From the NCBI GenBank assembly GCA_006503475.1, contig RSEH01000019.1, forward strand, positions 1 to 64,000: a stretch of DNA of 64,000 nt, given 5' to 3'. This document shows positions 2,213 to 63,650 of the stretch, one piece after another; positions within the stretch are counted from its first letter, which is position 1, and every line of letters starts with the position of its first letter. Under the pieces are notes generated by a model, which did not search any database, was not told the DNA's origin, and was given only the letters and a program-made list of their open reading frames with translations. The stretch comes from Stentor roeselii. Its lineage: Eukaryota; Ciliophora; Heterotrichea; Heterotrichida; Stentoridae. A program made the translations under genes and the position numbers.

Positions 2213-4536
2213 CTAATAACCTAATCTTTTGCTAATGCATTCAGGATATCGATCTTTCATTTGCCTACATTTTGGAGCATCGTTGTCTTCCCAAATCTCC
2301 TCTTTTTTTGTTAACATATTCCAGATTTGAACTATTTGAATTAACTCTTCCCTATATAGAAATTACTTTCTTAATGTATAATACCATCTTATAAATAATA
2401 CATCCTTTTTTGTTCATACGATCTAATATAAGATACCTAAAAATCATATACATCTAAATAAAAATTGTCCATCATTAGATAAAAGAAACTCTTTATCATT
2501 CTTGTCAGGCTTTATAAAATTCCAATATTTTTTTAAGAATTCCTTTTGTTGAGAAGTGTTCATCCGCTGAAAGTCTGAATAAAATTACCATTAACTTTTT
2601 TTATTTCCTCATTTTTGATCTTTATTTTTTCTAACTCAATTCTTTTAATTAATTCATCTTCTTTTGATAAGATAATTATGTTGGTGTTTCTTTGATTTTC
2701 TTGAAAAGTCTTTAAATCTTTAGTTTCTTGATCCTCTTTCATCATTTTATTTCTACCTAATAATTTTTGTTTTTTGAATGATTCAATTTCAGAGCGAATA
2801 TTTAAAACTGACAAATTATCCTTATTTTCAACTGCCCTATTTAATAATTTTATATTGGCCAAGGTTTTACTTTCTGAATCTTTAACAGACTTATCAAAGT
2901 ACTCTTGACCACTGTCAATTTTCAAATTAAATTCAGATTTCATGTTATTGATCTGATCATTTACTCTATTTTTCATATCATTAATTTCTGCAAAAAAGAT
3001 ATTCTTAGTTTCTTCAGCTTTCAAAAAACAAGTTGAAGCAACATTTTTTTCTATTTCACAAATCTTTATTTTCAAGGTATCAACGTGGGATTGCAAACTT
3101 TCACTTATTTCAAGTATTCTTTCGTTTACTAAGTTTTTATTATCATAGAATTCTTTTCTCAATGTTTCCATAGAATAAATCCTCTTCTTTTCAATTATTT
3201 CAAAATTTGACATCATATTAAATTCTAGTAAATTTTTGCAATCTGCAATTTGATTGCTTAATTTTAAAATTTCTGAACTGTTTTGACAAATCATTTGATT
3301 ATGTTGCTTATCACTTTGCTCTTTAAAGTCATTCAAAGTTTTTTCGAAGTCTTCTTTATTTTTTTCAAATTTTCGGTTGAAAGATTCGTTTAAATTGGTT
3401 AAACGTGCTTGGAAGTCACAAAGATTTTCACTGAAGGATTTTTCAAAATTACCAATCTTAACTGAGTACTTTTTATCTAAATTTTTCATATTCGAATCAG
3501 ATTTTTCAAGAACATCCGATATTTTTGCATTGAAGTCTTGAGATAATCGAAGTTCTCTTTCATTGTACCTGTCTTGCAAATCAACAAACTTTGATTCGAA
3601 ATCCTGAGAAATTCTCGCTAATCTCTTATCAAAATCTTGAGATAATTTATTTACCTTCTCAAGAATCTGGTCTTCAACAAAACTTTTATACATCAAAGTC
3701 GATTGTTCATTTTGTTCATATAAATTATTCAGTTGGGCAAGGCCGTCTAAGTCAAGTTCGTGTTTTTTGTAAATTTCTTTGAAAAGATCATGCTGGATGA
3801 ATTTTATTTGATTTTCGAGATCTTTCTGATCATTCTGATTCCCGAAGGTGTTTTCATGTTCCTCTAGTTTTTGTTTTAAACTTTCGATTTGATTTTGCAT
3901 TGAAAGTTGGGTCATTTTATGGTCTTCTTCAACTTGGCTCATTCTTTTCATGATTTCTTCCTTTTCAGATAGGTTTTTATTTGATTGATTTTTGGCTAGT
4001 TCGATTAATTCGTTGCTCTGCTTTAAATGGGTGACAATTCTTTTAAAGTCTTCAGAAAATAAAGTGAAATCTATCGTTGCCCCTTCTTTTGAAAAATGCT
4101 GGTCAATTAACTTTGCGAACTCTGCTTTTCCTCTTAGTTGGATACCGATTTCTCCTAAGTTTTTTATTGATTCTACGGTAATCGGCTCATTTGGTGTTAA
4201 GTTCGAAACTATTGAAACTAATTTCTCTTGCCTTTCTGAGAGGTCTTCTGTTATTTCGCAGAGCTTTCGACAGATCTCTTGAAACATTTCCCGACCTGTC
4301 ATCATGACTTTGGACATAGTTTTTGAAACATTCTTGAGTTCACTCACCACTTCTTCTGAGAATTCACTTTTGGTTGGATTCAAAAATTCACTTTGAAAAT
4401 ACTGAGTGTGATGATTATGGCTTGAAATGTGATCATCACACCATTTGAAGTTTTTATTGCACTTGCAATAGTGTTTAGGACTTCCTTTGCAGTCCCCGTA
4501 TAAGCAAGGGTGTTCCATATTTATAGACACTCTCAT
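2213..4536 (-). CDS. Zinc-binding coiled-coil protein with hidden 3' exons
   Basis: The main exon (4536-2589) encodes a B-box-like Cys/His module at residues 10-41 (C-x4-C-x6-C-x-C, then WCDDH and SHNHH), followed by some 550 residues of almost continuous coiled coil with recurring LSQDF motifs near residues 300-340. Function is unknown; the build suggests a structural or scaffold protein. The frame hits TGA at 2560, but removing a 14-nt intron (2575-2588) continues it through MNTSQQKEFLKKYWNF. A 15-nt intron at 2352-2366 leads into the last exon, which ends in CISKRLGY and TAG at 2213. Between these exons a third 15-nt candidate (2437-2451) and one or two single-base shifts, one at an A6 run near 2411, must be assumed. 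Two starts are possible: 4536, or the ATG at 4518, which has the TATAAAT context common in this window. Confidence 0.75.
2352..2366 (-). other. 15-nt intron
   Basis: GTAATTTCTATATAG. Removing it joins YTLRK to EELIQIVQIWNML in frame and eliminates two in-frame stops. Confidence 0.65.
2575..2588 (-). other. 14-nt intron
   Basis: GTAATTTTATTCAG. Removing exactly 14 nt (2 mod 3) moves the frame past the TGA at 2560 into an open, well-composed stretch (DFQRMNTSQQKEFLKKYWNF). A 15-nt excision would not restore the frame. Confidence 0.7.
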
Positions 4537-4859
4537 TTCATATTAATTGAACTGCTAATATAGTAGTAAAGTATATTATAAACTTAAATTTTATCTATTT
4601 GAAGCCTTCGCACATTTAAAAGATCTATTTTCTTGATGGACTTTTAAACATAAGATAACCCTTTCAAAATCCTAAATTTGACTATTCACTATTTTTAATT
4701 GCTTTTGATAAATAGGAATCATTTGACTGATTTTGAAAACAGAAAACAATGAGTTGATAGTAGATTATTCCAGTGTATCCTAAAGAATCACCGTACATTG
4801 TGTAGAGTGCTTGAATTGGATTATTCGCAAACTTACAAATATCTCCTTTTTTAGTTTCA
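4537..4859. other. Upstream spacer
   Basis: No gene seen. It holds the presumed promoter of the minus-strand gene starting at 4536 and otherwise AT-rich sequence. Confidence 0.4.
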
Positions 4860-4867
4860 AATACATA

Positions 4868-5163
4868 ATTTCTCTATCGATCACGATCAAAAAGACCTTG
4901 AGCAGCTTTACAATAAAATCAATGACTTTCTCAACTTTTTCAGAAACTTCGGACATGGACTGAAAGCGCTTCTTCTTGTTTTGGTCTTGCTTTTCATTCG
5001 CTGGGTCAATTCTTGTGTCTTGTGTGTTGCGTGGATCGTCGCCATGTGGTCTTTTGTGCAGCCTGCTTTGATTAAATTCGCTGGGCTTGACCTGGCACTG
5101 TTTGCGACATGCTTATTAATGAGAACCCTCTTGAAGACATTGTTGGCGCGTATTGGTAGATGA
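4868..5163 (+). pseudogene. Membrane-protein fragment without a start
   Basis: One frame is open from a TAG just upstream to TGA at 5161. It begins HNFSIDHDQKDLEQLYNKIN and continues into two or three hydrophobic helices (ALLLVLVLLFIRW; VLCVAWIVAMWSFV; LALFATCLLM). There is no ATG before the conserved-looking part; the first in-frame start-like codon is inside the first helix. I do not recognise the family. It may be an exon of a broken gene together with the stretch at 5292. Confidence 0.35.
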
Positions 5164-5291
5164 TTCCTAGAGCTAGTAGTGTAAGGAAAAGTGAGTAATA
5201 ACTTTCTTATTATGAGATATTTGCAAACTAAATAGTTACTTAGAATGTCTTCTTGCTTTAATCAGGTCGATTCTCTTCTTCAGTTTGTAAA

Positions 5292-5960: not shown

Positions 5961-7422
5961 GGCATCCTGTTGAATTGTCAATGAACTCAGACCGAATTTG
6001 AAAGTCACCACTTATGAAAGCTCCAAACTCTCAATGTCGGATTTTTAGAAAAGTTGAATTAATTTAGTTAAGTCTTGTTATTTTGGTTGATGGCAAAGAA
6101 AAATTTAGTAGAAGTAATTTTTTTTAGTTTTTGGACGTGGTAAGATAATTTTTTCAGGTTATTTTGAATTAAGAAAAATTGGAAAATATTGATTTAAGAA
6201 GTTTTTGTTATTAACTATTAATTATAAGTTGAAGAATTAGTATTTTTTGGTATTCATGATTTTTTCACAGTTGAATATTTATACTAGATAAATAAATTAA
6301 AATCATATCTAACCCTGCTAAATCTTAATTAGGAAAATATATTATTTGAGTGAAAAAATAAACCTCGATAATTGTTTCAATTATTTTAGAAGCTCTTTAA
6401 TACATGAATTCCTGTCAGAAACTTTCAAAGATAGTCTAAGAAATATTTACATAAATTTAATAAATTCTTTACTCTAACAGATTCTTGCAAATTAAGTTAA
6501 TTAAATATCTTTTTATTCTATATGATTTATTGATAATCTAAAATATACTTGAAAACTCTCTGAAGATTTTAAAGATTCAAAACTTTATAAAACATTATTT
6601 AAAATACATAATTTTGAAACTCCTACATATAACTTCAATTCAGCGCGTAAGGATGTGTTAAGATTTTGAAGTTTGAGTTTGATTTGAAACAGGTTATTTA
6701 AAGGATAGCTTTCAAATCAAAACTGAAGACTCTAATCAATTTTTGAGTATTGTAAACAGTACGTTACTTAATTTGAATGTAGTTTTAGCATAATTTTGAA
6801 AATATTAATATGCACGCCTCTAGTGATTCAATTCTTTAGTAATAAAAAGAGATCATTATAATGAAATTGATTTCATCTGGAAATCTTTTCCAACCATTAT
6901 CCAGAAACTCTTCACTTTTTTCACTTGCATGTGAAAGTACTTTAATATAAAAATTCTGATTAATTACTTATTGATCATAATAGAATCTTTCTGATTAATC
7001 TTAAATACCATTTTTTCTGTATCTGCTAATTATTTGATAAACAATTTCCTGTCCTGAGTCTGATCTTTAATTAATTGTGTTGATTTTTGCATTAGATGAT
7101 AAAATCCTTATCTAGACTTCAGAAACCCGTATTAAGAGTTAATCACAAAGAAAATTTTTTGAATTTTCACATAAAACTTTAATTATAACAAAAATATCAA
7201 TCTCTAGCCTTGCCTAGATAGATTAGAGATTCTTTCACAATTAAATAAACCATAAATCAATCATGCTGATGATAATCCTAAAAAATCTCACCTAATCACT
7301 GTTATTCTCTTAATCCAATAATAAAAATATAATTTTCGTTAGCACAAGTGAAGCACGCTCTAAAAACAAAGACCAACCCAAAAAAAATCCTTAAGCTCCA
7401 TCTTCAATCATCCACTAATAAA
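5961..7422. other. Long AT-rich spacer
   Basis: About 1.4 kb with no supported open frame or RNA gene on either strand. The last 100 bases before 7423 are the presumed promoter and leader of the aldo-keto reductase locus. Confidence 0.5.
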
Positions 7423-8160
7423 ATGTCTGAAATCAGTCTAATTTCAGGAAACAAGATGCCACGAGTCGCATTCGGAGTCTTTCAAGTATCCAAAGAAGAA
7501 ACAAAGCAATCAGTGCTAAAAGCCATCCGCTCAGGTTACAAGCACATCGACACAGCTTCAATTTACCAAAACGAAGAAGAAGTAGGAGAAGCGCTTTCAG
7601 AGTTATTCGCCTCAGGAGAAAAATCAAGAGAAGACATATACATAACAACGAAGTGTTTCATGACAAAGTACAGAAACATCCGAGGTGCCTTAAGCGCCAG
7701 TCTCGAAAGACTGAAGGTTTCCTACGTCGACCAGTACCTGCTGCACTGGCCGATGGCTCTGGAGCCAGACGATTCGGAGCCTCCGAAGTTCACAACGAAA
7801 CTCGACAGATACCCTCTGCATCTCGCCTGGGCTCAGATGGAAGAACTGCAGAGAGAAGGCCTTGTGAGGTCGATTGGGGTCTCTAACTGGACTATCGCTC
7901 TTTTGAATGACATGCTTGGCTTCGCTAGAATTTTGCCTGATACGAACCAGTTCGAAATCAACCCTTATAATAAAAAGGAAGAACTTGTTGAGTTTTGCCT
8001 ACAACATCATATTGTACCTGTCGCTTATCGAGTCATTTATCGACCTGATAGACTCTCGAGTTTATCAAAATCTATTTTAGATGATCCTGTTGTTGTTCAG
8101 GTTAGTCAAGTCCTGCCCAGGTCCTTCAGGCTTGGTGCTTAAGCAGAAAATGTGCTGTTA
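7423..8160 (+). pseudogene. Aldo-keto reductase, truncated and frame-shifted
   Basis: NADPH-dependent aldo-keto reductases form a (beta/alpha)8 barrel that reduces carbonyls. Counting from the ATG at 7423, the catalytic tetrad is present: Asp43 (KHIDTA), Tyr48 (SIYQNE), Lys77 (ITTK) and His108 (LLHWP). GVSNW and NQFEINPY follow as in the family. The GTG-led frame reaches 75 bases further upstream, but the ATG has the usual AATAAAATG context. Near 8100 the frame shifts and the loop is 5-6 residues short (VVVQVSQ, then PAQVLQAWCLS in another frame). Homology ends at about VIVKT (8160), before the C-terminal third, and relic sequence of another gene begins at once. It is therefore a truncated or rearranged copy, probably not functional. 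Confidence 0.75.
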
Positions 8161-8164
8161 TAGT

Positions 8165-10293
8165 GAAAACTTTGCAGAGGAATCAGGAGGTGAAGTTTAC
8201 TATTCCACTAAAAAATGTGAAACATGTGGGGTTTACTTTTCAGGAAAAACAAAATCATTGAAAACTCTTGCAGTCAAGAAGGAGGAGGAGTTAGATGGAA
8301 TGAATTTAAACTTTTTTATAATACCTCTGAAGTACTTATAAAAACAATAGAGCTACATATGGCAACAACATAGCTTCTGAAGCAGTTTCTTTATCTTTTT
8401 CAAGTTCTCGTAACTTAAAAGAAGCCATTTTGATGATCAGCGATTTCGCTCTGGTTAAGAATTCTTCGAAAAAATTTTAGTTTACCTAAAAGACACATAC
8501 GGCCAAATAGTATCAACTGACAGTAACTCTTCACTAACAATTTCAATAAATTTATAAGACAGCAGATACTCAGTTTCTGGGCAAACCAGTTTCACTGCAG
8601 AAAAATGAATAATCACAGTAACTAATTTACCCTCTACAGTCTTCCAGAATCTTGGGTGATCGTAAAGCTCGAATCAAACTCACTATAAAAAAGATAGAAA
8701 CGATGAATCAAATGATGAAGAAACCATTTACCTTAATGCAACTTTTAGAAGTTGCTCTAATGGCGAGCAGATTCAAAGCACTTCTTGTGAGAAATGCCCT
8801 GAAGGAAAATACTTATCGGAACCAAAGAGAAACTGCAAGTCTTGTCCTTTTGGAGCATTTTGTGGTGGAGGGTCTTCAGTGGCTGTGAATAAAGGGTATT
8901 GGAGGTCTAGTTTGAATTCAGAGATCATTTATTCCTGTGAATTTCCTGAAGCCTGCCGAGCTGGAAACTCTCAAGATTAACTTGGAAATTATTGTGCGGG
9001 ATACGAAGGTGTTTTGTGCCAATCATGTTAAATCGGGTACATCATGAACTCTTTTTACAAATGCTCTAAATGTCCTGAAAGAACTGCAAATCTTGTCATT
9101 CTTGTCGTGGTTTTTATATCCTGCTTTTATTGCTGTGATAATCGTTAAGGCTACACTCAAGTCGGCATTTGTTTCTAAAGAAATGTATTTGGTATATATA
9201 AAAATATTCACAATTATCTTCAATTGGTGTTTATTGTGAAACAGTTTAACCTCGAATGGCCTGAATATGTGCTGGAGCTTTTTAGGTATCAACAAGGAGC
9301 TGCCACGCTGACAGAGCAGATCTTTTCATTGGACTGTTATCTTGAAGAGAAGAAATTAGAGAGTAAAACTCAAGGATATTACTTAAAAGTTTTATTGATG
9401 GCGATAGCTCCTTTTATCATCATTTTTACTTGTTATTTGTACTGGATTCTTCACAGTTTTACGAAGGAAAATTAGAAGTATTTAAAAAGAGAAGTTTTTT
9501 ATCAATTATTGTTGTTTTCATTTGATATGCCTGACTATCTCGAAGTCTTTGCTATCGAATTTTAATTGTATTAAAATAGACCAAATGAAAATTTACCTTA
9601 AATCGAATACAAGCATACAGTGCTGGAATAATCTTCATCAAAGATACTCACTCATCATTGCACTTCCTGGATTTATTTTATGGACTATAAGTTTTTTTAG
9701 TTTCCTGGTGATTATTATGTCGAAAAATAAAAAGCCTCTGCATTTAGATCACAATCGTGTTATTTTGGGTATTTGTTTAATGGGTACAAAGCTACGAAGA
9801 TTTATTGGGAATTCTTGATTATGTTAAGGAAAACTCTTCTTATTGTAATTTCTGTGTTTTTATCTCCACAAGAAATTATTGTTCAAGCTTTGACTGTTTT
9901 CCTGATTTTTCACTTTATCTTCACTATTCAAAAACACCTTTCAATTCAAAAAAACTTAATAACATAGAAACAGAGACTTTATTAACTGCTTCAGTCACTA
10001 TTTATAGTGGCCTTTATTATGGATCTGAAGGAAACAATGCCAGGTTAGAAATATTTTTATTTATTTTCATTGTTTTCGGAAATCCCTACTTTTTTAAGTA
10101 TTGGATTTATTACTTGTTTCAAGAAATCTTAGATATTTTCATCAAATTCTGCCCTCAATTCAAAGGCAGGCTCAAAAAAGGAGACTCTTTTCAACAAAAT
10201 TTTAATGAACAGCCAACTTTTCAAGATGAAGTTCATCAGAATAAGCTAGAAGGTAAAAAATCTTATACTTTTATGCACCCTAACCAGGTTTAA
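8165..10293 (+). pseudogene. Relic of a Cys-rich, multi-TM secreted-repeat protein
   Basis: Scattered over all three frames is the C-terminal part of a large ciliate surface protein. It starts with repeat-type sequence (NNRATYGNNIASEAVSLSF, about 8341-8480; LKDTYGQIVSTDSNSS, 8490-8560). A Cys-rich ephrin-receptor-like block follows (SCEKCPEGKYL, NCKSCPFGAFCGGG, about 8780-8980). The end is a multi-TM module: TLFTNALNVLKELQ and helices to 9220; VKQFNLEWPEYVLELF to DCYLEEKK, 9230-9360; YKATKIYWEFLIMLRKTLL, 9780-9850; ETETLLTASVTIYSGLYYG, 9965-10030. Several stops and shifts separate the pieces, one of them at an A7 run near 9951-9957. The family assignment rests on the remembered ciliate pattern of these motifs. 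Confidence 0.6.
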
Positions 10294-10620
10294 AACAAAG
10301 AAAACTCAAATATAAAAATATGGACCAAGTATTTTGGGACTTTGCAAGAATTGATATGATAAGAACAAAGAAAAAAAATATATTCTAGCAGAGTTTAGTA
10401 AGTTGAGATTATTGATGAATACTTAAATTTAAGATTAATTAGATAAAAAAGCTGATGATTTATTTTTTTGTACTTTTAAAGAAAATTCAAAAATATTTGT
10501 TGTGATTTAAATACTTCCTGAATCCAAATTCCTACAATTAAACTTTCCTCTCCAACAACTAAATTTTTATCTTCACAATTAACCCTGCAATCAAGTTCTT
10601 TCAATAAAATTGTTGCATAA
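10294..10620. other. Spacer upstream of the ABC transporter
   Basis: No gene seen. It contains the presumed promoter; the start at 10621 has the context GCATAAATG. Confidence 0.4.
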
Positions 10621-13600
10621 ATGTCAGGAACTGAAAATGTTAAAGCTCCATTCCCATACGACAGTTCAAACATCATCAAAGATCTGTTTTTTATCTGGAT
10701 ATTCCCTTTAACGAATTTTTACCGAAAGTTCAGTCCAACAGAAGAAAACATTTTCGATCTTCCAGACCGACTTGACTTTGAAGCCGACTTAAAACAAGCT
10801 AAAAAGGAGTGGAAAAATGAGAAAAAGTCTGAAAACCCGAACATTTTCTTCCCAATTTGGAGAGTTCTGAGGAAGCAGTTCCTCATCGGAATATTTCCAG
10901 CAATGATCAGTTGTAACTCAGGACTGATAACATCGCTGATGCTTTGGTACATAATCGACTACATAAATGGCAAGATTGAAAACGTGGTCCCTTACGTCGT
11001 GATCTACTCAGTGGTCGTTCAATGCAATTCCCTTTGCACGAATTTTTCCATTGTCAGATGTTTAGTGATAGTTGCCAAGTTAAAAGCGATTTTATCTCAA
11101 ATGATTTACGAAAAATCACTTAAAACTTACTTCAGCGAAATCAATCAAGGTGCTCAAAGTGGAAAAATCACGAGTTTGATTTCTTCAGATCTTGAGTTTT
11201 TTGAAGGAATCATCATGATGCCGCTTTTCATTGGAATGCCTTTATTTTTAATCGGAGCTGCTATTTTACTCTGGTTCAGCATCGGAGTTGCAGGCCTTAT
11301 CGGCTTGGCAGTCGCGATTTTTCATCTTCCGATCATTGTTTACTTCGGGAAGTTCATTGGTAAGATCCGGTTCATAACAGCAGCGATTGGGGACTCTCGA
11401 ATGAAGATGATCACAAATTTCATTGAAGGAATTCGAATTGTGAAGTTATATGGCTGGGAAAATCCTTATCTCAGCAGGTTATTCGAGAAAAGAGCAGAAG
11501 AAATCAGACAACATAAGAGAAAATCTTTAGTTTCAAGTGCAAACAAGTCAATCAACTACGGGTCAATGGGACTTATTCTCTTCGTGACATTCACTGTTTA
11601 CGTGGCACTGGGGAATACCTTAGACCCTTCCACAGCCTTTTCCTCGATGACAGTCCTCATCATGAGCACCTCTTCAGTCAGCGTGATTGGCTCATTAGGA
11701 ATGACTCAGATCTTCCTGCTCAAAACTGCCTGTCAGCGAATCACTCAAGGTCTACTGCTGAAGGAAAAGTTCAAGTCAGTCTACGAAAAGCCAAGTAAAA
11801 AATACTCTCTCGAACTGAAAAAATGCAATTTTATGTGGAAAGAGCCGAAAAAATCTAAAGATAATAACGATGTCGAACTTACTAAACGAGAAACTGAGGT
11901 AGGATTTTCACTTAGAGATATCAACTTTCAAGCAAAAAAAGGAGAATTGATCATTGTCGTTGGCGCTGTTGGTTCAGGAAAAAGTGCTTTACTTCTTGGA
12001 ATTTTAAATGAAATCTTTCTTAGTTCTGGGAAAATAAAAGTCGATGGGAATATTTCTCTTGTCAGTGAAGAGCCTTGGATTGTCTCAGGGACTATTAAAG
12101 ATAATATTTTGATGGGAAATGATGAAAATGATGAGTTTTACAATGAAGTCATTGAAAAGTGCTGTCTTGCTAAGGACCTTCAAAACTTCAAAGAATATGG
12201 AGACCAAACAGTTGTTGGAGATCGTGGAATCACTTTAAGTGGAGGGCAAAAAGCAAGAGTTTCTCTTGCTCGAGCGGTTTTTTCTAATTCTGAGATTGTT
12301 TTACTTGATGATCCACTCAGTGCAGTGGACCCTGAAGTTTGCTTTGGACTTTTTAATAATTGTATTAAAGGTATCTTGAGAGAAAAGACAGTTATCCTGG
12401 TAACTCATCAGACACATTTCGCATCACAAGCTGATAAGTTGATTATAATTGATGAAGGAAGACAGATCTTTTTCGGTACATACGAAGAGGTAATCCAAAC
12501 TAGTCTAACCAATTTCCTGGGTAATCTTCAACAAACCAAAGAACAAAAACCGAAAGAAACCCAAAATCCAGAAGAAAAGAAATTCGAAATCCAGTCCACA
12601 ACCAAAGACAAAAAATCCCTAATCTCGGAAGAATCAGCGAAAGGTACAGTCCCGTTCAAAATCTACTCCAAATTTCTAATGCTAGGTTTCAAAAACATCA
12701 TAATCTTCCTCTTAGTCATCCTCCTTCAAATCCTATCACAAGCATCTTACCTCTCAATAATCTACTGGATAGTCTTCTGGTCTAATTCAAGCAACCAAGA
12801 AGATTCAAGTAACATCTACGGAATGGCAATTCTCGTAGGAATCCTTTATTTCACAACATATCTTCGGGTGGTTTCCGTGACTTTTCCTCTTCTGACCTCC
12901 ACTGAAAAGTTACACAATCTTGCAATAAAAGCTCTAGGTTTCACAAACAGCTTATATTTTGACCAGAACCCGACAGGGCGTATGTTGAATCGATTCGCGA
13001 AGGACAGCTCAAATCGACGAGGTCCTCATCATGTTTATACTTGAGTCGATTTTTTCAATTTCACTGGTTTTAGGAAATTTTGTTACAGTCATTATTATTA
13101 TTCCTTTTATGGTGATTCCCTTTGTGGCTATTTTGATTTACTTCTTTTTGGTCATGGCTTACTTCAGCCCGGCTTCGAAACAGTTGAAGAGAATGGAACT
13201 GGTAACGAAAAGTCCGATCATTTCTTTGATGAATAGCTCGATCAACGGCTTGACCACCATTCGATGTCTATCGATTCAACGAAAGCTGAAAAAAGACATG
13301 ATGAGTACGATTGAGGTTAACTTCAAGGCTTATATTTCTTTTCAATTCATGTTCCGTTCAATGCAGATGTACCTGGAGTACGGTCCGAGTGTTTTAGGAC
13401 TGATTAACATAATTGTGATTGTTAATATCAAAGACCAAATCGAACCTGGACTAGCCGCCATGAGTATTTCAGTCACTTTGACTATCATGGGATATGTCGG
13501 GTACCTGTTCAAGACGCTGATTGACTGACAATTACATGACTTCAACTCAGAGACTCTTCGAATACGCTGATCTGTCTTCAGAAGGCGTACATGACTTGAA

Positions 13601-14385
13601 TCCTCAATTCAAAATCACTCAAGGAAAAATAGAAGTCCAGCACTTGTACATGAAATATCGAGAAAACTATGGCTCTGAAAGACCTCAACTTCACCATTCA
13701 ACCTGGAACAAAAACTGGCATCATCGGCAGGACTGGAGCGGGAAAGTCGTCGATCATGCAAGTTCTCTTTCGACTCACTAACCCTGAACAAGGAACCATC
13801 TTTATTGACGGCCAAGACTATTTAACTGCAGGACTTCACGATTTAAGAAGGCAAATGTCTGTCATTCCTCAGTCTGCTACTCTTTTCATCGCTAGTTTAA
13901 GAGACAACCTTGACCCTTTTCATGAACATTCTGATGAAAGTATTGAAAAAGTACTCAAAAAAGTAAGACTCAGCTCTTTGATGAAGATCCTGCCTAAAGG
14001 ACTTGATTCAGAAATTAACTCTGAGGGACTTTCATTGTCTGCTGGTCAAAAACAACTTGTGTGTCTTGCTAGAGCTATTTTGAGGAAGAATAAAATAATT
14101 ATGATTGATGAAGCCACTGCTAATGTTGATAGTGAAACTGATGAATTTATTCAGAAACAACTTAATCGGAGGTTTAAAGGATCTACTTTGCTTATTATTG
14201 CTCATCGGCTTAGAACTATCATAGATAGCGACTGGATTATTGTTATTGATTCTGGTGCTACTTTGGAAGAAGGAGTTCCGAGGAAACTGGTTAAGAAGAA
14301 GGCCTCGGCTTTGATGACTATGATTAATCATACTGGACCGGAGGAAAGTGCTTATTTGATGTCTAAATTGCAATCAAATAATTAG
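10621..14385 (+). CDS. ABCC/MRP-type ABC transporter, split over three frames
   Basis: A full-length ABC exporter of the MRP (ABCC) layout, TMD1-NBD1-TMD2-NBD2, about 1,250 residues. These use ATP to move conjugates or drugs across membranes. NBD1 has Walker A GAVGSGKSALL at about residue 448, signature LSGGQKARVSLARAVF and Walker B IVLLDDPLSAVD. NBD2 has GRTGAGKSSIMQ, LSAGQKQLVCLARAIL and IIMIDEATANVD, then the switch His in IAHRLRT. The reading frame changes near 13011 (NRFAKDSS to IDEVLIMFI), near 13524 (LFKTLID to DNYMTSTQRLFEYA) and near 13670 (KYRENY to ALKDLNFTIQPG). Each change is equivalent to +1, or to two bases missing, and alignment to family spacing favours two missing bases. No 14-16-nt intron fits any of the three. 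Either it is a pseudogene with an otherwise well-kept sequence, or the consensus carries errors. Confidence 0.85.
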
Positions 14386-26709: not shown

Positions 26710-26726
26710 TGACACACAAAGAGTGA

Positions 26727-53885: not shown

Positions 53886-54517
53886 TTATTTACCTCTGCT
53901 TCTATTATCCACTCGAAATGATCCTTGGGGTAAACGACATGAATAGGATAATCTGAGAAGGTTCTCAGTGATTGCAGCTTCATTCATTCTTTCAAACATC
54001 AAAGAAAAACATAAGTTTATCCCTGGTGAGATTTTTGAAGATACCTCGGAATAATCAGCTGATAAAGACCTTGACAGTTCTTTACCATTCTCGAAGGTTA
54101 TAACTCTTTGATCGGTTAAGTCACATTTGTTCCCAATTATCATGATTTTAGGGACTTTTGAAGTATTTCTAAGAATTTCATTGTGCCAAGTCGTGACATT
54201 CAAAAAAGAGTCCTCGTTGGTGACGTCGAAAATAATGATGATTCCATCAGCCACTCGGTAGTAGTTTGATATGAAAGATTTAAATCGATCTTGACCTGAT
54301 GCATCCCAGATCTGAAGACTTATCGGGTCTTCATTTATACTCACATGTTTCAACCTCTTTTAGATTTTACAAAATCAATGCCGATTGTGGGAATGAAGGA
54401 GTCGATGAATTGGTTTTCAGTGTATTGGCTTAATAAAGTTGACTTTCCTACACTGGAATCTCCGAGAAGTAGAATTTTAAATAAGGAAAGGCTGAATGAA
54501 GAGTACGAGTTTGACAT
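53886..54517 (-). CDS. Rab-like small GTPase, copy 1 of 11 (most diverged)
   Basis: Exon 1 (54517-54371) encodes [20 protein letters not shown] with P-loop GDSSVGKS and ends TIGIDF. A 14-nt intron (54357-54370, GTAAAATCTAAAAG) is followed by RLKHVSI in exon 2. The switch-II motif is WDASGQD (catalytic Gln kept), the base-binding motif GNKCDL, and SSK replaces SAK. Total 205 residues; it ends in RSRGK with no prenylatable cysteine, which is odd for a Rab. The G-domain is intact and the start is clean. It is the most distant copy, 1.2 kb from copy 2, and probably the least altered member functionally. Confidence 0.85.
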
Positions 54518-55085
54518 TTATTTGGATGGATTTATGATGGAGGAGTTTTTAGGTTAGAGGGAAGTGTTTGTTGTTTTAGAGTTTTTTTATTTTGATTTGT
54601 TGGGTGGAGAAAAGGTAGATGAAATCAATGGAGTGATATTTTATAATAATGATTGAAAATTGGGTATTTTACTTGATTTATTTATTGATATTGGAATATT
54701 GAATTTCATATATATGTGATCTGGAAACATTTCATCAGATAAGATTGCTTTAATTAATTAGGCTAAAATATTGATTACTCTAAATTTTTGATTCATTTTT
54801 AACCAGGTTTAAGAATCATAACATAAACAATTCTTTTATAGATTAATTTATGACCGGCTTAATAATTAGTGAAGGTGGAATGTTTTCGAGATGGATAATC
54901 ATTGATTACTGTTACCTGTTTCAGTAACTGCACTGAATACTAGGTTATGCATACTTGATAAGTATTTATTTCTATTCTAAACTCTTCTATGAACTAATTC
55001 ATTCACAGACATCAACTTTAATCTAACAAAACATCTAAAATCTCTAAAAAACTCAAAAATCATCCTATTTCTCTATATCTAAACC
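54518..55085. other. Spacer between Rab copies 1 and 2
   Basis: AT-rich, no gene seen. It is longer than the other inter-copy spacers (about 0.2-0.25 kb). Confidence 0.4.
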
Positions 55086-55722
55086 TTAACCTACAATACC
55101 CTCATTCTTTTTTTCTCCTTCTTTCATCTCCAAACATTCCAAAGTTTCACTCCAAAGTCCTTCATGAATAACATGCTTCGCCTCCTTCAAAACCCCAGCA
55201 AAAACCATTAAACACTCATCAACTCCAATAAAATTCTTCGCAGAAGTCTCCATATAAACAACTCCTAAACACCTAGCAAGTTCTTGCGCTTGTTCAAAAG
55301 AAACAACTCTTTGTTCTTCCAAGTCAGATTTATTTCCCAGTAAATCGCTTTGGAGGAGAAAAATCTTTCAGTTTCTTTTATCCATCTTTCAACATTTTTC
55401 AAAGAATTCAAATCTGTTAAGTCGAAGACAACAATGACTCCATCTAAATCTTGAAGGTAACTTTTAATAAAGGGAAATAAGTTTTTTTCATTACACTCAA
55501 GGTCCCAGATTTGAAGGAATAAATCAGGGTGGAATCTTGGGAATGGTAGGAAAATCTTCATGAATTTCAAGAAATCGATGCGATAAGTTGAAATATAGGA
55601 TTCTTTGAATTCTTGTTTTGGAATCTTTGTAATAGGCTTGACTTTCCTACTTTGGTGTTTCCGTAGAGAAGAATCTTGGAAATGTAGCGGCTGAATAAGG
55701 AGTACTTTTTTTGGGTTGACAT
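55086..55722 (-). pseudogene. Rab-like GTPase, copy 2, two one-base shifts
   Basis: Starts MSTQKKYSLFSRYISKILLY with P-loop GNTKVGKS at 55722. One base appears to be missing in CAAAAC near 55622 (QRFQ to QEFKESYISTYRIDF), and another in an ATTTA run near 55340 (SSKAI to GNKSDLEEQRVVSFEQAQEL). No intron is present at the site where all other copies have one (IDF continues directly as LKFMKIF). At codon 6 it has AAG where copies 4-10 have TAG. The catalytic Gln region is altered (WDLECNE). Both lesions lie in short homopolymers, so sequencing error is as likely as decay. Confidence 0.7.
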
Positions 55723-56162
55723 TTTGAGGAATATTCATAGATTTAGATTGAAGATGGTTTTAGGTTGTAGATGTAAATTTTTTGTTTAGATATTTTATTA
55801 TCGAGGTTTATTTTGATTTTTTTATTATCAGAAAATTAATGGTCATGTCTTTATTGTAATTTAAGATTCATTTGTGATTAAATTATTGAAATTTAACATG
55901 GAATATTAGATTTTTAAGTTTTAATATTGCTTAGTTAAATTATGAATTGGTTCAAGTATTAGCTACTTGGCTTTATTCATGAAACACAAAGCTTATGACT
56001 TCAAATATAAAAAATTTTGGACTAACCCTTAAGATTTAGAAGTTTTATTTGTATATCACAGGTTAACCAGCTGATAAATGAATTAATACTTTTTTTCAAA
56101 GAATTTTGATGTTTTTCAATTGACTAGTCCTAGTTTATTTGTGAGTTAAACAGAGTCATATT

Positions 56163-56626
56163 AGAGCATTCAAAATAAATACCCAGATAATTCCCAGCAA
56201 ATCTTTATCTTCATCGAAAGTGATAAGGTCAATTTTATTTTCAATAATTTTTTTTTTCAAATTTTCTGAGTAAAAATTTGAAACTTCTTGCATCCAAGTC
56301 TGGCATTGACAAAAGTGTTCTCGTCAGTGATGTCCAAACAATCACAACGCCATAAACTCCTTGTTAGTAAGAAGAATTCATCATTTTAACCGTTCTTGAT
56401 CTGTATTGTCCCAGATCATAAGCTCGATTGTTCCTTCATTTATTATGAGCGTCTTTATACTCTTTTAAATTACAATTCAGTGACGACGATTCTTGATCTT
56501 AATAAATTTATAAACTAGTCATTTTTGGAAAATCGAATTAAAAGGATCAACTTTTCTACACTGCTATCACTGATAAGCATGATTTCAAAAATATTGTCAC
56601 TGAGTAAAGGGTACCTTGTTAGACAT
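56163..56626 (-). pseudogene. Rab-like GTPase, copy 3, decayed
   Basis: Clearly alignable to its neighbours (ATG at 56626, P-loop region, NTWMQ-like and NKIDL-like stretches) but with several frame changes, stops and a deletion before the DQAKEF segment. It is the only copy in the array that is plainly dead. Its spacing (884 bp from copy 4's start) keeps the array period. Confidence 0.8.
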
Positions 56627-56863
56627 TTTTATTATGGTAAAGCTTTATCGAATTCGATAGGTTAATTCATGGGATAGTTTCAGGGATAATAATTCAAAAC
56701 TTACCTTTGATTTATAATTTAAAGATTATTTTATTCTAACTTCGCTATCTAGGATCGTCAAATGATAAAATTATTTAAATGAAGAAAATAATCATATTTC
56801 GGTACAAAATACAAAATAAACCTTAAAAAATTTTAATATTCTTCTATGAATTAAAACTAAACC

Positions 56864-57510
56864 TTACTTTAAACAAAATCCTTTCATGTCTTTTTCAGTT
56901 CTTAGATTAATCTTCAAACTATTTGACGAAACATTTTTGAAGGATCTTCTCAATATTTCTTGTTCTCTTCTAATACTTTCCGTCAGTATTAAAAACGCTT
57001 CATCAACTCCAACAGCTTCTTTCGCAGAGCATTCAATATAACTTACCCCATAAGTCTCAGCGAATTCTTTAGCTTGATCAAAAGTAATAACTCTTAGCTC
57101 AACTAGGTCAATTTTATTTCCGATAACTAGTTTTTTCACATTTTCTGAGCAAAAATTTGAGACGTGTTGCATCCAAGTGTTAACATTGACACAAGAGTAC
57201 TCTTCAGTGATGTCAAAAACAATAACAACACCATGAAGTCCTCGGTAGTCATGACGATCCATCATTTCGAACAGTCCTCGCCCGGAAATGTCCCAAAGTT
57301 GAAGGTTGATTATTTCTTGATTGATTTTGAGGGTTTTTACTCTCTTTTAGATGTTACGAAATCAATACCATCTGTTGCTTTGGAGTAATTTAAGAACTTA
57401 TTTTCGATAAAACGAGTTAAAAGACTTGACTTTCCTACTGCGCTATTGCCGATAAGAGCAATATTAAACTTATAGTCACTGAGTAAAGAGTACTATTGAT
57501 TGTCAGACAT
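56864..57510 (-). CDS. Rab-like GTPase, copy 4, with TAG at codon 6
   Basis: Exon 1 (57510-57358) is 51 codons with TAG as the sixth (ATG TCT GAC AAT CAA TAG TAC), then SLLSDYKFNIALIGNSAVGKSS. The 14-nt intron is at 57344-57357 (GTAACATCTAAAAG). Exon 2 runs [10 protein letters not shown] to GFCLK and TAA. Switch II is WDISGRG (catalytic Gln replaced by Arg and the following Glu by Gly); GNKIDL and CSAKE are intact. No in-frame ATG follows the TAG within exon 1. Confidence 0.65.
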
Positions 57511-57760
57511 TTTATAAAGAGGTTATGAAATTCGATAGATAATGTATTGATAGTTTCAGAGATAAAAATCAAAAATTTAAAGATTAATAGTTCAAAGTTA
57601 TTTTTTATTTTATAAGTCAAAGATTAATTTATTCCAAATTACCTATCTAGTATCATCAAATAAGAAAATTTTTCAAATAAAGAAAATGATAACCTTACAG
57701 GACTCAATACCAAATACATTCTAACAAGCATAAAATTTTTCTATGAATGAATATTAAACC

Positions 57761-58410
57761 TTACTTTAAACAAAATCTTCTCATTTCTTTTTCAGGTCTT
57801 CGATTAATCTTCAAACTATCAGATAAAACATTTTCCGAAGATTCTCTCAATATTTCTTGTTCTCTTTTCATACTTTCAGTCAGTATCAAAAACGCTTCAT
57901 CAACCCCAAAAGCTTCTTTTGAAGAACATTCAATATAACTTGCCCCATAAGTATCAGCAAGATCTTTGGCTCTATCGAAAGTAACAACTCTTTGTTCAAC
58001 TAAGTCAATTTTATTTCCGATAACTAGTTTTTTCACATTTTCTGGACAAAAATTTGAGACTTCTTGAATCCAATTGTTTACATTTACAAAAGAGTTCTCG
58101 TCAGTGACGTCAAAAACAATTATAATGCCATGAACTCTTCGACACTGAGAAAAAATCGGAATTTTTAACCGTTCTTGTCCGGGAGTATCCCAAATTTGAA
58201 GGTTGATTATTTCTTGATTTATTTTGAGTGTTTTTAAAGTCTTTTAGATATTACGAAATCAATGCCGTTTGTTGATGAGAAGTAATTGAAGAAGAACTTA
58301 TTTACCATAAAACGTCTTAAGAGACTTGACTTTCCTACTGAATAATCACCCAGAAGAAAAATTCTGAACAGATAGTCACTAAGTAAAGAGTACTATTGAT
58401 TGTCAGACAT
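57761..58410 (-). CDS. Rab-like GTPase, copy 5, with TAG at codon 6
   Basis: Exon 1 (58410-58255) has 52 codons, TAG at the sixth, then SLLSDYLFRIFLLGDYSVGK. Intron 58241-58254 (GTAATATCTAAAAG, 14 nt). Exon 2 starts [10 protein letters not shown] and contains WDTPGQERL, so this copy retains the catalytic Gln, plus GNKIDL; CSSKE replaces CSAKE. It ends in RRFCLK. Apart from the TAG the frame is open throughout. Confidence 0.65.
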
Positions 58411-58615
58411 TAATGTATTGGATAGTTTCACTGATAAAAATGAACATTTCGGTTCAATATTAAAAATTTTTTTTTATTGTAATTTTTTACGGTTTCCCTA
58501 TCTAAGATAATCAAAAGAATAAACTATTTAATTGAATAAAATGATAACCTTGCAAGACGTGATAAAAAATACATTCTAACAATACTTAAAATACTTTGTC
58601 TATCAATATTAGACT

Positions 58616-59262
58616 TACTCTAAACAAAATCTTCTCATGTCTTTGTCAGCTCTTTTGATTGATCTTCATACTATCTGATGAAACATTTTCCGAAGATTCT
58701 CTCAATATTTCTTTTTCTCTTTTGATACTTTCCGTCAATATCAAAAACGCTTCATCAACTCCAACAGCTTCTTTCGCAGAGCATTCAATATAGCTTGCCC
58801 CAAAAGTCTCAGCGAACTCTTTGGCTTCATCAAAAGTGACAACTCTTTGCTCAGCTAGGTCAATTTTACTTCCGATAATCATTTTTTTCACATGTTCTGA
58901 GCAAAAATTTGAGACTTGTCGCATCCAAGTATTTAAATTCACAAAAGAGTTTTCGTTAGTGATGTCAAAAACAATCACAACACCATTAACTCCTCGGTAA
59001 TAAAAAGAATTCATCATTTTGAACCGTTCATACCCGGGAGTATCCCTAATTTGAAGCTTGATTATTTCTTGATTTAATTTAAGAGTTTTTATTCTCTTTT
59101 AGATGTTACAAAATCGATGCCGATTGTTGCCGTGAAGTAATTTAAGAACTCATTTTCGATAAAACGAATTAAAATACTTGACTTTCCTACTGAGCAATCG
59201 CCGATAAGGACAATTTTAAAATAATAATCACTGAGTAAAGAGTACTATTGATTGTCAGACAT
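58616..59262 (-). CDS. Rab-like GTPase, copy 6, with TAG at codon 6 and a 3' shift
   Basis: Exon 1 (59262-59110): TAG at codon 6, then [20 protein letters not shown] and [11 protein letters not shown]. Intron 59096-59109 (14 nt). Exon 2: switch II reads IRDTPGYERF (Trp to Arg, Gln to Tyr), and the base motif is GSKIDL (Asn to Ser). Near the end an extra A in CAAAAG shifts the frame, so it stops at TGA (58646) as INQKS. Without it the copy would end RRFCLE like its neighbours, at a TAA near 58616. Confidence 0.6.
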
Positions 59263-59509
59263 TTTGTAAAGAGCTTTATCAATTCGATAGATAATGTATT
59301 GATAGTTTCAGAGATTAAAATAAAAATTTAAAGTTTAATGATTCAAAAGTTATTTTTATCGTATAAGTCAAAGATTAATTCATTCCGAATTCCTATCTAA
59401 GATAATCAAAAGAATATATTATTTGATTGAAGAAAATGATAACCTTACAATCCGATAAAAAATTCACTCTAACAAGTCTTAAAATTCTTCTATGAATGAA
59501 TATTAAACC

Positions 59510-60156
59510 TTACTTTAAACAAAATCCTTTCGTGTCATTTTCAGGTCTTTGATTAATCTTCAAACTATCAGATGAAAAATCTTTGGAGGAAACTCTAAAT
59601 ATGTCTTGTTCACTTTTGATACTTTCCGTCAATATTAAAAACGCTTCATCAACCCCAACACCTTCCTTTGCAGAGCATTCAATATAAATCGCCCTATAAG
59701 TATCAGCTAATTCTTTAGCTTGATCAAAAGTGACAACTCTTTGCTCAGTTAGGTCAATTTTACTTCCGATAATCATTTTTTTAACATTTTCTGAACAAAA
59801 ATTTGAGACTTGTTGCATCAAATATTTAACATTCACAAAAGAGTTCTCGTTAGTGATGTCAAAAACAATTACAACACCATTAGCTCCTTCATAATAAGCA
59901 GAACCCATCATTTTGAACCGTTCTCGCCCGGCAGTATCCCTAATTTGAAGCTTGATTATTTCTTGATTTATTTTGAGGGTTTTTATTCTCTTTTAGAAAT
60001 TACGAATTCGAGGCCGATTGTTGCTGTAAAGTAATTTAAGAACTTATTTTCGGTAAAACGAATTAAAAGACTTGACTTTCCTACTGCGCAATCGCCGATA
60101 AGGACAATTTTAAAATAATAATCACTAAGTAAAGAGTACTATTGATTGACAGACAT
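59510..60156 (-). CDS. Rab-like GTPase, copy 7, with TAG at codon 6
   Basis: Exon 1 (60156-60004): [29 protein letters not shown], ending TIGLEF. Intron 59990-60003 (GTAATTTCTAAAAG, 14 nt). Exon 2: [10 protein letters not shown] (Trp to Arg, Gln to Arg), GSKIDL (Asn to Ser), [14 protein letters not shown], end KGFCLK. Open apart from the TAG. Confidence 0.65.
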
Positions 60157-60374
60157 TTTTATTTAGGTTAAACGTAATCTTTTTTGATAGGTAATGTATA
60201 CGATAATTTCAGTGATAAAAAAATCAAAATTTAAAGATTAATATATTCCGAATACCTATATAAGATAATCAAAAGAATATATGCTTTGATAGAAGGAAAT
60301 GATAACCTTAAAAGTCCTATAGAAAAATTCACTCTAACTAATCTTTAAATTTTTCTAGGAGTCAATATTAAACC

Positions 60375-61022
60375 TTACTTTAAACAAAATCCTTTCATGT
60401 CATTTTCAGGTCTTTGATTCATCTTCAAACTATCAGATGAAAAATTTTTGGAGTAAACTCTCAATATTCCTTGTTCTCTTTTAATACTTTCTGTCAATAT
60501 TAAAAACGCTTCATCAACCCCAACAGCTTCTTTTGCAGAGCATTCAATATAACATGCCCCATAAGTCTCAGCAAATTCTTTGGCTTGATCAAAAGTAACA
60601 ACTCTTTGCTCAACTAGGTCAATTTTATTTCCGATAACTAGTTTTTTCACATTTTCTGAGTAAAAATTTGATACTTCTTGCATCCAAGTGTTTAAATTTA
60701 CAAAAGAGTACTCTTCAGTGACGTCAAAAACAATTACAACACCATGAACTCCTCGGTAATCAAAAGGAATCATCATTTCGAATCGTTCTCGCCCGGCAGT
60801 GTTCCAAATTTGAAGCTTGATTATTTCTTGATTTATTTTGAGGGTTTTTGTTTTCTTTTTAGAGATTACGAAATCTATGCCGATTGTTGCTGTGAAGTAA
60901 TTTAAGAACTTATTTTCGGTAAAACGAATTAAAAGACTTGATTTTCCCACTGAGCAATCGCCTAAAATCGCGATTTTGAACATATAGTCACTGAGTAAAG
61001 AGTACTATTGATTGGCAGACAT
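60375..61022 (-). CDS. Rab-like GTPase, copy 8, with a second ATG after the TAG
   Basis: The upstream ATG (61022) is followed by TAG at codon 6, as in its neighbours. Codon 14 here is ATG (60983), which gives MFKIAILGDCSVGKSSLL and could rescue initiation; no other TAG copy has this. The intron is 15 nt (60855-60869, GTAATCTCTAAAAAG) and also open if retained, so spliced (DFKTKTLKI) and unspliced (DFVISKKKTKTLKI) forms are both in frame. Switch II is WNTAGRERF; GNKIDL and CSAKE are intact. The best candidate for an active gene among the TAG copies. Confidence 0.8.
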
Positions 61023-61255
61023 TTTTACTTAGGTAATGTATTGGATAATTTCAGTGATAAAAATTCAAAAATTTAAAGATTAATATTTAAATACATTTTT
61101 TATCGAATAAGTCAAAGATAATATATTCCGAATTACCTATCTAAGATAATCAAAAGAATATATTCTTTGATTGAAGAAAATGATAAACTTAAAAGTCCCA
61201 TAGAAAAATTCACTCTAACTAATCTTAAAATTCTTCTAGGAGTCAATATTAAACC

Positions 61256-61901
61256 TTACTTAAAACAAAATCCTTTCATGTCTTTTTCAGGTCTTTGATT
61301 AATCTTCAAAATATTTGACGAAACATATTTGAAAGAATCTCTCAATATTTTTTCCTCGCTTTTGATACTTTCCGTCAATATTAAAAACGCTTCATCAATC
61401 CCAACACCTTCCTTCGCAGAGCATTCAATATAACTTGCCCCATAAGCCGCAGCAAATGCTTTGGCTTCATCTAAAGTGATAACTCTTTGCTCAACTAAGT
61501 CTATTTTATTTCCGATAACTAGTTTTTTCACATTTTCTGAGCAAAAATTTGAAACTTCTTGCATCCAAGTGTTGAGATTGGCAAAAGAGTTCTCGTTAGT
61601 GACGTCAAAAACAATGACAACTCCATGAACTCCTCGGTAATCATAAGGAATCATTATTTTTAACCGTTCTCGCCCGGCAGTATCCCAAATTTGAAGCTTG
61701 ATTAATTCTTGATTAATTTTGAGTGTTTTATTCTCTTTTAGATATTACGAAATCACTCACACATGTTGATCTTAAATTATTTAAGAAGTCATTTTGGGAA
61801 AAACGAAATAATAGACTTGACTTTCCCACTTTGTAATAGCCGATAATAGCAATTTTAAATAAATAGTCACTGAGTAAAGGGTACTATTCATTGTCAGACA
61901 T
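61256..61901 (-). CDS. Rab-like GTPase, copy 9, with TAG at codon 6
   Basis: Exon 1 (61901-61749): MSDNE, TAG, YPLLSDYLFKIAIIGYYKVGK, ending VSDF. Unlike the other copies, exon 2 is in frame only if the intron is 16 nt (61733-61748, GTAATATCTAAAAGAG), giving [20 protein letters not shown]; with the usual 14 nt an A4 run is one base short. Switch II is WDTAGRERL; GNKIDL and CSAKE are intact; end KGFCFK. Confidence 0.6.
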
Positions 61902-62135
61902 TTTTATTAAGATAAAGCTTTATCGAATTTGATAGATTAATCCATGTGATAGTTTCAGTGTTAATAGTTCAAAAGTTATGATTTATCTTTTATTCAAAGA
62001 TTAATTTTATTGCAACCTCTCTATCTAGGATCATAAAGAATAAACTATATAATTATATAAATTACCGAATTACAAGACACAATACAAATAAATTCTAACT
62101 AATCTTAAAATTCTTCTATGAATCAATATTAAACC

Positions 62136-62779
62136 TTACTCTAAACAAAACCTTCTCATATCTTTTTCAGGTCTTTGATTAATCTTCAAACTATCTGATG
62201 AAACATTTTTCGAAGTATTTCTCAATATTTCTTCTCTTTTCATACTTTCCGTCAATATTAAAAACGCTTCATCAACCCCAACACCTTCCTTCGCAGAGCA
62301 TTCAATATAAATAGCTCCATAAGTCTCAGCAAATTCTTTAGCTTCATCAAAAGTAACAACTCTTTGCTCAGCTAGGTCAAGTTTACTTCCGATAATTATT
62401 GTTTTCACATTTTCTGAATAAAAATTTGAGACTTGTTGCATCCAAGTGTTCAAATTCACAAAAGAGTTCTCGTTAGTGATGTCAAAAACAATCACAAGAC
62501 CATCAACTCCTCGCCAATTAGAAGGAATCATCATTTTGAACCGTTCATACCCGCCTGTGTCCCAAATTTGAAGCCTGATTAATTCTTGATTTATTTTTAG
62601 GATTTTTACTCTCTTTTAGATATTACCAAATCACTCAAAAATCTTACTGTGAAGTGATTTAAGAACTTATTATCGATAAAACGAAATAATAAACTTGACT
62701 TTCCCACTCTGTAATCGCCGATAAGAGCAATCTTAAACAAATAGTTACTGTGTAGAGGGTACTATTCTTTGTTAGACAT
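62136..62779 (-). CDS. Rab-like GTPase, copy 10, with TAG at codon 6
   Basis: Exon 1 (62779-62627): MSNKE, TAG, YPLHSNYLFKIALIGDYRVGK. Intron 62613-62626 (14 nt). Exon 2: RVKILKINQELIRLQIWDTG, switch II GGYERF (Gln to Tyr), base motif GSKLDL (Asn to Ser), [13 protein letters not shown], end RRFCLE. Closest in 5' sequence to copy 9. Confidence 0.65.
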
Positions 62780-63012
62780 TTTATTAAGATAAAGCTTTAT
62801 CGAATTTGATAGGTTAATCAAGTGGATAGTCTCAAGGTGAATAGTTCAAAACTTATCTTTGATTTTATAATTTAAAGATTAATTTTATTCCAACTTCACT
62901 ATCTAGGATCATAAAACAATAAACTATATAATTGACTAAAACTATTGAATTGCAAGACCCAATACAAAAATTCTAAAAAGCTAAAAATTCTTCTATCAAT
63001 CAATATTAAACC

Positions 63013-63650
63013 TTACTTTAAACAAAACCTTCTCATGTCTTTATCAGGTCTTTGATTGATCTTCAAACTCCCAGATAAAACATTTTCTGAAGATTCTCTC
63101 AATATATCTTGTTCATTTTTGATACTTTCCGTCAATATCAAAAACCCTTCATAAACCCCAACACCTTCTTTCGCCGAGCATTCAATATAACTTGCCCCAT
63201 AATCCTCAGCAAATTCTTTAGCTTGATCAAAAGTAACAACTCTTTGCGCAACTAAGTCAATTTTATTTCCGATGATAATTTTTTTCACATCTTCTGAGTA
63301 ATGATTAGTGACTTGTTGCATCCAAGAGCTGAGATTAAAAAATGAGTTCTCGTTAGTGACATCAAATACAATCAAAACACCCTTTACTCCTCTATAGAAA
63401 GAAGAAGTCATCACTCCCCGCCCGACAATGTCCCAGATTTGAAGCATGACCATTCCTTGATATATTTGAAGGGTTTTTATTCTCTTTTAGATGTTACGAA
63501 ATCGATGTTGATTGTTTCTATTATGTTACTTCTGAATTCATTTTCGGTAAAACGTATTAAAAGACTTGACTTTCCCACTCCGCAATCACCGAGAAGCACT
63601 ATTTTGAATAAATAACCACTGAATATATGGTACAAATCTTTGTCAGACAT
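63013..63650 (-). CDS. Rab-like GTPase, copy 11, fully open
   Basis: Exon 1 (63650-63498) reads [20 protein letters not shown] with TTG (Leu) where seven other copies have TAG, then GDCGVGKSS and NIDF. Intron 63484-63497 (GTAACATCTAAAAG, 14 nt). Exon 2: [20 protein letters not shown], with a few residues deleted just after switch II ([12 protein letters not shown] instead of AGRERFEMM...). GNKIDL and CSAKE are intact; end RRFCLK. 207 residues with no internal stop. Confidence 0.8.

Follow-up and report, generated by a model that had tools for sequence, protein, structure and literature searches.

Putative 14-nt introns alongside a dominant 15-nt class in Stentor roeselii

The window, meaning the whole stretch of 64,000 nucleotides analysed here, lies at the very start of contig C119 (RSEH01000019.1) in the 44.4 Mb, 522-contig genome of the heterotrich ciliate Stentor roeselii, and it holds an array of nine minus-strand Rab gene copies (R1 to R9) together with genes for a protein of 936 amino acids (aa), a coiled-coil protein, a PX-domain protein and a longin/synaptobrevin protein, in all of which very short putative introns can be recognized. 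The spliceosomal introns of this genome appear to be mostly 15 nucleotides (nt) long, with the form GTA..AG, and a minority of them are very probably genuine introns of 14 nt. Elements of the form GTA..AG that are exactly 14 nt long coincide with breaks in coding frames, and their excision restores homology; as far as genomic sequence can tell, such elements would be spliced.

In the Rab array the intron in question follows the residues DF (DL in R8, EF in R5), and at this site each AG-ending length up to 24 nt was tried for its ability to give a full frame. The copies are arranged as follows, with first and second run denoting the two intron scans described further below.

53886-54517, minus strand: Rab gene R1, 200 aa; 14-nt intron GTAAAATCTAAAAG at 54357-54370, called in both runs
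55265-55759: decayed Rab-like copy, between R1 and R2
56864-57510, minus strand: Rab gene R2, 205 aa with 14 nt only; 14-nt intron GTAACATCTAAAAG at 57344-57357
57761-58410, minus strand: Rab gene R3, 206 aa with 14 nt only; 14-nt intron GTAATATCTAAAAG at 58241-58254
58379-58393, minus strand: 5' intron of R3, 15 nt, GTACTCTTTACTTAG, removing an in-frame TAG
58646-59262, minus strand: Rab gene R4, 195 aa with 14 nt only; 14-nt intron GTAACATCTAAAAG at 59096-59109, called in the second run
59510-60156, minus strand: Rab gene R5, 205 aa with 14 nt only; 14-nt intron GTAATTTCTAAAAG at 59990-60003, called in the second run
60375-61022, minus strand: Rab gene R6, 205 aa; the corresponding intron, GTAATCTCTAAAAAG at 60855-60869, has 15 nt and was called in the second run
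61256-61901, minus strand: Rab gene R7, with the same 14-nt string; among AG-ending lengths only 16 nt (GTAATATCTAAAAGAG, 61733-61748) gives a full frame
62136-62779, minus strand: Rab gene R8, 204 aa with 14 nt only; 14-nt intron GTAATATCTAAAAG at 62613-62626
63013-63650, minus strand: Rab gene R9, 202 aa with 14 nt only; 14-nt intron GTAACATCTAAAAG at 63484-63497

Seven of the nine copies (R1-R5, R8 and R9) open only when 14 nt are removed, yielding products of 195-206 aa. An earlier note on this DNA had assigned the 14-nt length to eight copies; it holds for these seven, R6 having a 15-nt intron and R7 either a 16-nt intron or a broken frame. For R3, the 14-nt intron received first-run support of 16.4 log units, with no model alternative up to 40 nt and no AG at 16 nt; for R2, neither run gave 14 nt, the first run giving 25 nt. 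R6 differs from the 14-nt copies by one additional A in the stretch that precedes the last G, with no change in exon length, and it stays open without splicing too (210 aa). Excision of 14 nt from R7 leads to a stop at 56 aa, excision of 16 nt gives 204 aa, and excision of 13 nt gives 205 aa but does not end in AG. A further 15-nt intron (GTACTCTTTACTCAG and variants), overlooked in the earlier note, lies inside the first six codons of all nine copies (54492-63633, minus strand), its low ends in the eight copies other than R3 being 54492, 57479, 59231, 60125, 60991, 61870, 62748 and 63619; it excises an in-frame TAG in seven copies and removes no stop in R1 and R9.

Four Rab genes elsewhere in the genome, on C131, C201, C205 and C89 (locus L017), carry a 15-nt GTA..AG element after an Asp-Phe codon pair, the first three being the only matches to a genome pattern that allowed 12-18 nt and the fourth coming from the second run. 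These introns would occupy the same site as the intron of the array. Because Rab genes elsewhere have 15 nt there, this length is probably ancestral at the site, and since R6 sits among 14-nt copies, it may have gained one base.

Exact 14-nt excision restores a gap-free junction alignment to solved homologues not only in Rab but also in two unrelated genes at loci outside the window.

Locus L020, 4890-4903: 14-nt intron GTAAAAAAAATTAG in a gene for an NSUN6-like RNA methyltransferase
Locus L052 (C220), 434-447: 14-nt intron GTAAAGGTAAACAG in a kinesin gene

The spliced R3 protein aligns with Rab1A (2rhd) free of gaps at the junctions of both its 15-nt 5' intron and its 14-nt intron, the match starting two residues upstream of the former and containing one extra residue about ten residues before the latter. 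The spliced NSUN6-like protein matches human NSUN6 at E 9.9e-59 and 5zvd, a homologue from an archaeon, at E 3.1e-48, and its alignment with 5zvd is free of gaps at and near the junction. For the kinesin, six GT..AG candidates of 10-23 nt lie in the stretch concerned and only the 14-nt one fits the frame change; the spliced protein aligns gap-free with KIF13B across the junction, from GPPKAYNYNYCFTSKD as far as DSNL; beyond that point, KIF13B carries eight additional residues.

Intron length was also surveyed without a preferred value, in 26 stretches, the window plus 25 loci, with a total of 311 kb, by a coding model trained on their long frames. In the first run, introns of 10-40 nt were allowed at equal cost for every length, with a GTA start and an AG end required and no branch site imposed. 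This returned 49 introns, with 25 at 15 nt, seven at 14 nt, one at 16 nt (L016, with weak support of 1.2 log units) and at most three at any other length, so that outside 14 and 15 nt there were 17 matches across 29 lengths. Thirteen decoy motif pairs gave 25-65 matches apiece, and their counts at 14 nt were 0, 5, 0, 0, 1, 1, 1, 3, 0, 1, 2, 0 and 2, a mean of 1.23; apart from TGA..AG, the sole pair to come near GTA..AG was GTG..AG, with eight matches at 15 nt. With two Rab matches merged into one, the Poisson probability of six 14-nt introns against 1.23 is 0.0017, and with one false call (at L025) dropped as well, leaving five, it is 0.0086; against the rate of GTA..AG itself at other lengths (17 in 29), the probability of the 14-nt count is 0.00036.

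The second run used a scoring matrix learned from 22 introns of 15 nt only, lengths of 10-30 nt and 12 column-shuffled decoys, and is tabulated at thresholds of 6 to 8, since at a loose threshold 15 nt was the only length at which the true motif clearly outnumbered the decoys. At a score of at least 8 there were 26 calls at 15 nt (decoy mean 2.75), three at 14 nt (0.25) and three at 12 nt (2.83, the decoy level); 13 nt (0.17) and 16 nt (0.58) yielded no call. At a score of at least 7, the true motif gave four calls at 14 nt and 35 at 15 nt, decoy sets never exceeding three and eight, respectively, and no call was made at 13 nt. Two other lengths were considered and set aside: a 12-nt class, whose five calls at a score of at least 7 are at the decoy level (mean 4.25), and an excess at 21 nt, with four calls at a score of at least 8 (decoy mean 1.58), a count that one decoy also reached.

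The model had been given no branch site, and A stood at position 10 in all 25 of the 15-nt introns of the first run, with T at position 9 in 17 of them; this conserved A10 would be the branch point. Among the seven 14-nt calls of the first run, including the false one, A occurs at position 9 in four and at position 10 in seven. The 14-nt Rab copies have A10 without A9, the site at 2575 has A9 without A10, and the 14-nt elements of the kinesin, the NSUN6-like gene, the site at 42923, L020-684 and L032 have both.

Six further sites in the window bear on the two lengths.

2575-2588, minus strand: GTAATTTTATTCAG, a possible 14-nt intron towards the 3' end of the coiled-coil protein gene, called in neither run
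36559-36573, plus strand: 15-nt intron GTAAAATCCACCTAG in the PX-domain gene, support 51 log units
39655-39669, minus strand: 15-nt intron GTAAGGTTTAAGTAG, called in the second run
42513-42527, minus strand: 15-nt intron GTAGGGTTTAGGTAG in the gene for the 936-aa protein, called in the second run and not in the first
42923-42936, minus strand: 14-nt intron GTAAAGGTAAATAG in the same gene, called in both runs
50363-50377, plus strand: 15-nt intron GTAAAAAATATTTAG in the longin/synaptobrevin gene

All eight coordinate pairs quoted in the earlier note hold sequence of the kind it described, and its four 15-nt sites are sound. At 36559, the PX domain places 76 residues on 76 profile positions over the junction; at 50363, support is just 1.5 over no intron, and the synaptobrevin domain places 88 residues on 88 positions over the junction. 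At 39655, excision restores a CCHC zinc knuckle; a 12-nt alternative scored 0.3 log units higher there in the first run. The 14-nt claim for 42923 is supported by both runs and by an intronless paralogue (C208) that retains the KI.KN residues, which a 23-nt excision would delete. For 2575, the claim is plausible only: the 43-residue tail of the spliced frame scores -2.4, compared with 13.8 +/- 6.9 for coding sequence and -32.5 +/- 19.6 for the best frame of non-coding sequence.

The surplus of 14-nt calls, relative both to the decoys and to GTA..AG at other lengths, together with the homology restored in Rab, the NSUN6-like gene and the kinesin, thus supports a 14-nt class beside the 15-nt one, as the earlier note had proposed. 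Several observations weigh against it. The TGA..AG decoy reached five matches at 14 nt, the highest of the 13; the call at L025, one of the seven first-run 14-nt calls, is false, a kinase motif reading straight through it; and the first run had limited sensitivity, as it recovered two Rab introns of 14 nt and overlooked five. In the second run, six 14-nt calls reach a score of at least 6, one of them lacking an AG end, where decoys average 2.0 and go up to 5. All 14-nt Rab copies but R3 have another AG at 16 nt, as does L032; moreover, R7 and R8 have identical 16 bases, yet R7 needs 16 nt and R8 needs 14 nt, an unexplained choice of acceptor that points to use of tandem acceptors or to a broken R7. 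The paralogue C208 is one residue shorter just before the 42923 junction, and in the alignment of the NSUN6-like protein with human NSUN6 the aligner places insertions two residues past the junction. The ratio of nonsynonymous to synonymous substitution rates (dN/dS) has a median of 0.56 (range 0.35-1.08) over the 21 pairs formed by seven array copies, without the divergent R1 and without R7, whose frame is broken under 14 nt, and such a value represents merely moderate constraint. Finally, the NSUN6-like intron holds a run of eight A residues, with the attendant risk of sequencing error.

Among other explanations, the one that survives best, though improbable, is that the assembly misses one base at each site and that the true introns are 15 nt long. 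Besides the eight-A run of the NSUN6-like intron there are runs of four A in the Rab copies, frame breaks with no visible intron do exist (a Rab match on C380, locus L058), and three dynein matches have clean but shorter frames. Yet random indels frequent enough to mimic a 14-nt class should appear more often in dyneins and chaperonins, where the frames are clean in 21 of the 28 dynein matches (4,026-4,658 aa, 89,125 codons altogether) and nine of ten full-length chaperonin matches, from 17 in total, are clean single frames. The other seven dyneins comprise one of 4,289 aa whose match contains a stop, the three clean shorter ones (2,031, 2,540 and 3,856 aa), one of 1,056 aa and two weak, stop-ridden matches. 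Missing-base errors would also need to hit introns repeatedly and to affect seven array copies alike, and in the kinesin and 42923 introns the longest A-run is three.

That the frame breaks reflect pseudogenes or ribosomal frameshifting, with no splicing, is very unlikely. Such a view could draw on R7, which 14 nt does not join, on the decayed Rab-like copy at 55265-55759, and on the median dN/dS with one pair at 1.08. Against it, the same Rab genes have a clear 15-nt intron, the break falls at a point where 15-nt introns are present in other Rab genes, and in Rab, the NSUN6-like gene and the kinesin alike it coincides with a 14-nt GTA..AG. Seven Rab copies hold about 200 codons open on both sides of the break; in simulation, a neutral frame stays open with probabilities of 0.13, 0.018 and 0.004 at 0.05, 0.10 and 0.15 changes per site. 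Together with the dN/dS values given above, this indicates that selection maintains the frames of the array. Least probable of all is that the real introns extend beyond 14 nt or end at the following AG (giving 16 nt for Rab, 23 nt for the 42923 site and 26 nt for the NSUN6-like gene), 14 nt merely mimicking the frame, for although the 23- and 26-nt model alternatives come within 0.3 and 1.3 log units and six of the seven 14-nt Rab copies do have an AG at 16 nt, 16-nt excision cuts those six to 50-76 aa, R3 admits no other AG-ending length up to 24 nt, no other GT..AG of 10-23 nt fits in the kinesin, and 5zvd is gap-free at the NSUN6-like junction.

If the 14-nt elements are introns, they would be removed by the same U2-type spliceosome as the 15-nt ones, with the branch at A9 or A10, a lariat loop of 9 or 10 nt and a tail of 5 or 4 nt. 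They may derive from 15-nt introns through loss of one base inside the intron, a change that would not be felt by the reading frame, the Rab array being an example of such a one-base difference at one intron position. A wider proposition is about evenly balanced: that in this species introns of 14 nt form a regular minor class no rarer than those of 16 nt, with lariats of 9-10 nt and tails of 4-5 nt, and that intron positions drift freely among 14, 15 and 16 nt, partly by way of tandem AGAG acceptors, a pattern that the Rab array suggests.

A match to U2 snRNA is present in the genome, and an Rfam scan of the window at the gathering threshold gave no match. Long reading frames occur with all three stop codons in force; UGA is a stop here, and the code would be the standard one, which Stentor coeruleus also uses. 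The telomere repeat CCCTAACA occurs in tandem, with 547 matches to three units (24 bases) and none for a reversed control pattern; among the matches listed, plus-strand runs start at most 8 bases into C26, C40, C48, C56 and C70, and the run of C13 reaches the last base of that contig. Because it combines CCCTAACA telomeres, the standard code and tiny introns, the assembly would represent a heterotrich macronuclear genome.

Published accounts give heterotrich introns as 15-16 nt (PMC9505925, PMC9942806, PMC11441545, PMC10245619), and the 14-nt elements lie outside the range stated there, in keeping with the suggestion of the earlier note that a genuine 14-nt class would be at or below the shortest spliceosomal introns described. 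In S. coeruleus, 8173 of 8806 annotated introns are 15 nt and 633 are 16 nt, no other length being annotated in the account cited, and the branch A is at position 10 (PMC9505925). The introns described here are likewise GT..AG, AT-rich, predominantly 15 nt and marked by A10, whereas the conspicuous minor class has 14 nt rather than 16 nt. Blepharisma stoltei shares the tiny introns (there predominantly 15 and 16 bp), the CCCTAACA telomeres and a compact genome (there 41 Mb), but reads UGA as tryptophan rather than as a stop; 14 bp goes unmentioned for it in the text cited, where "predominantly" leaves room for rare other lengths (PMC9942806). The unrelated parasite Mikrocytos mackini also has extremely short and uniform spliceosomal introns, although of 16 or 17 nt (PMC10245619), and Loxodes magnus, from the sister group of heterotrichs, has short introns too, but with a mode of 17 bp and, in the account cited, where RNA-seq was mapped allowing introns down to a length of 10, a negligible number below 16 bp (PMC11441545). 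Among the papers listed by phrase searches of the literature, judged on titles and the opening of abstracts, none reports 14-nt spliceosomal introns. Should RNA confirm them, introns of 14 nt would be shorter than the spliceosomal lengths in the papers cited and would set a tighter limit on the spacing of 5' splice site, branch and 3' splice site. The Rab array offers natural one-base variants (14, 15 and possibly 16 nt) of one intron in close relatives, in which the measuring rule is directly testable, and a heterotrich gene finder restricted to 15-16 nt would miscall such genes.

Genome-wide family searches for frame breaks (150 Ras, 122 kinesin, 17 chaperonin, 15 SNF2, 28 dynein DHC_N2, 111 PP2C and 18 amino-acid transporter matches) yielded few. 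Reading by eye all 24 kinesin matches that start at profile position 18 or later gave the 14-nt intron of L052, two 15-nt candidates (L047 and L051) and one 16-nt candidate (L044, C514:101300-101900), in which GTAAAAAATAGTTCAG joins the frames at about 373-388 in gene orientation; a 16-nt class may be present here too. Partial matches read in the same way (four Rab, L058-L061; one PP2C, L064) showed no frame-shifting intron to the eye, L064 having 15-nt candidates only, and at L058 (C380:6700-7100), which has a frame break, no intron-like sequence of suitable length was seen. Seven 15-nt calls of the second run (in L009, L010, L012, L013, L020 and L023) have a GTG donor, with A at position 10 in six, and GTG is probably a minor donor. 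Elsewhere in the window, at 7333-14385, plus-strand frames overlap and are shifted relative to one another, perhaps marking a decayed mobile element.

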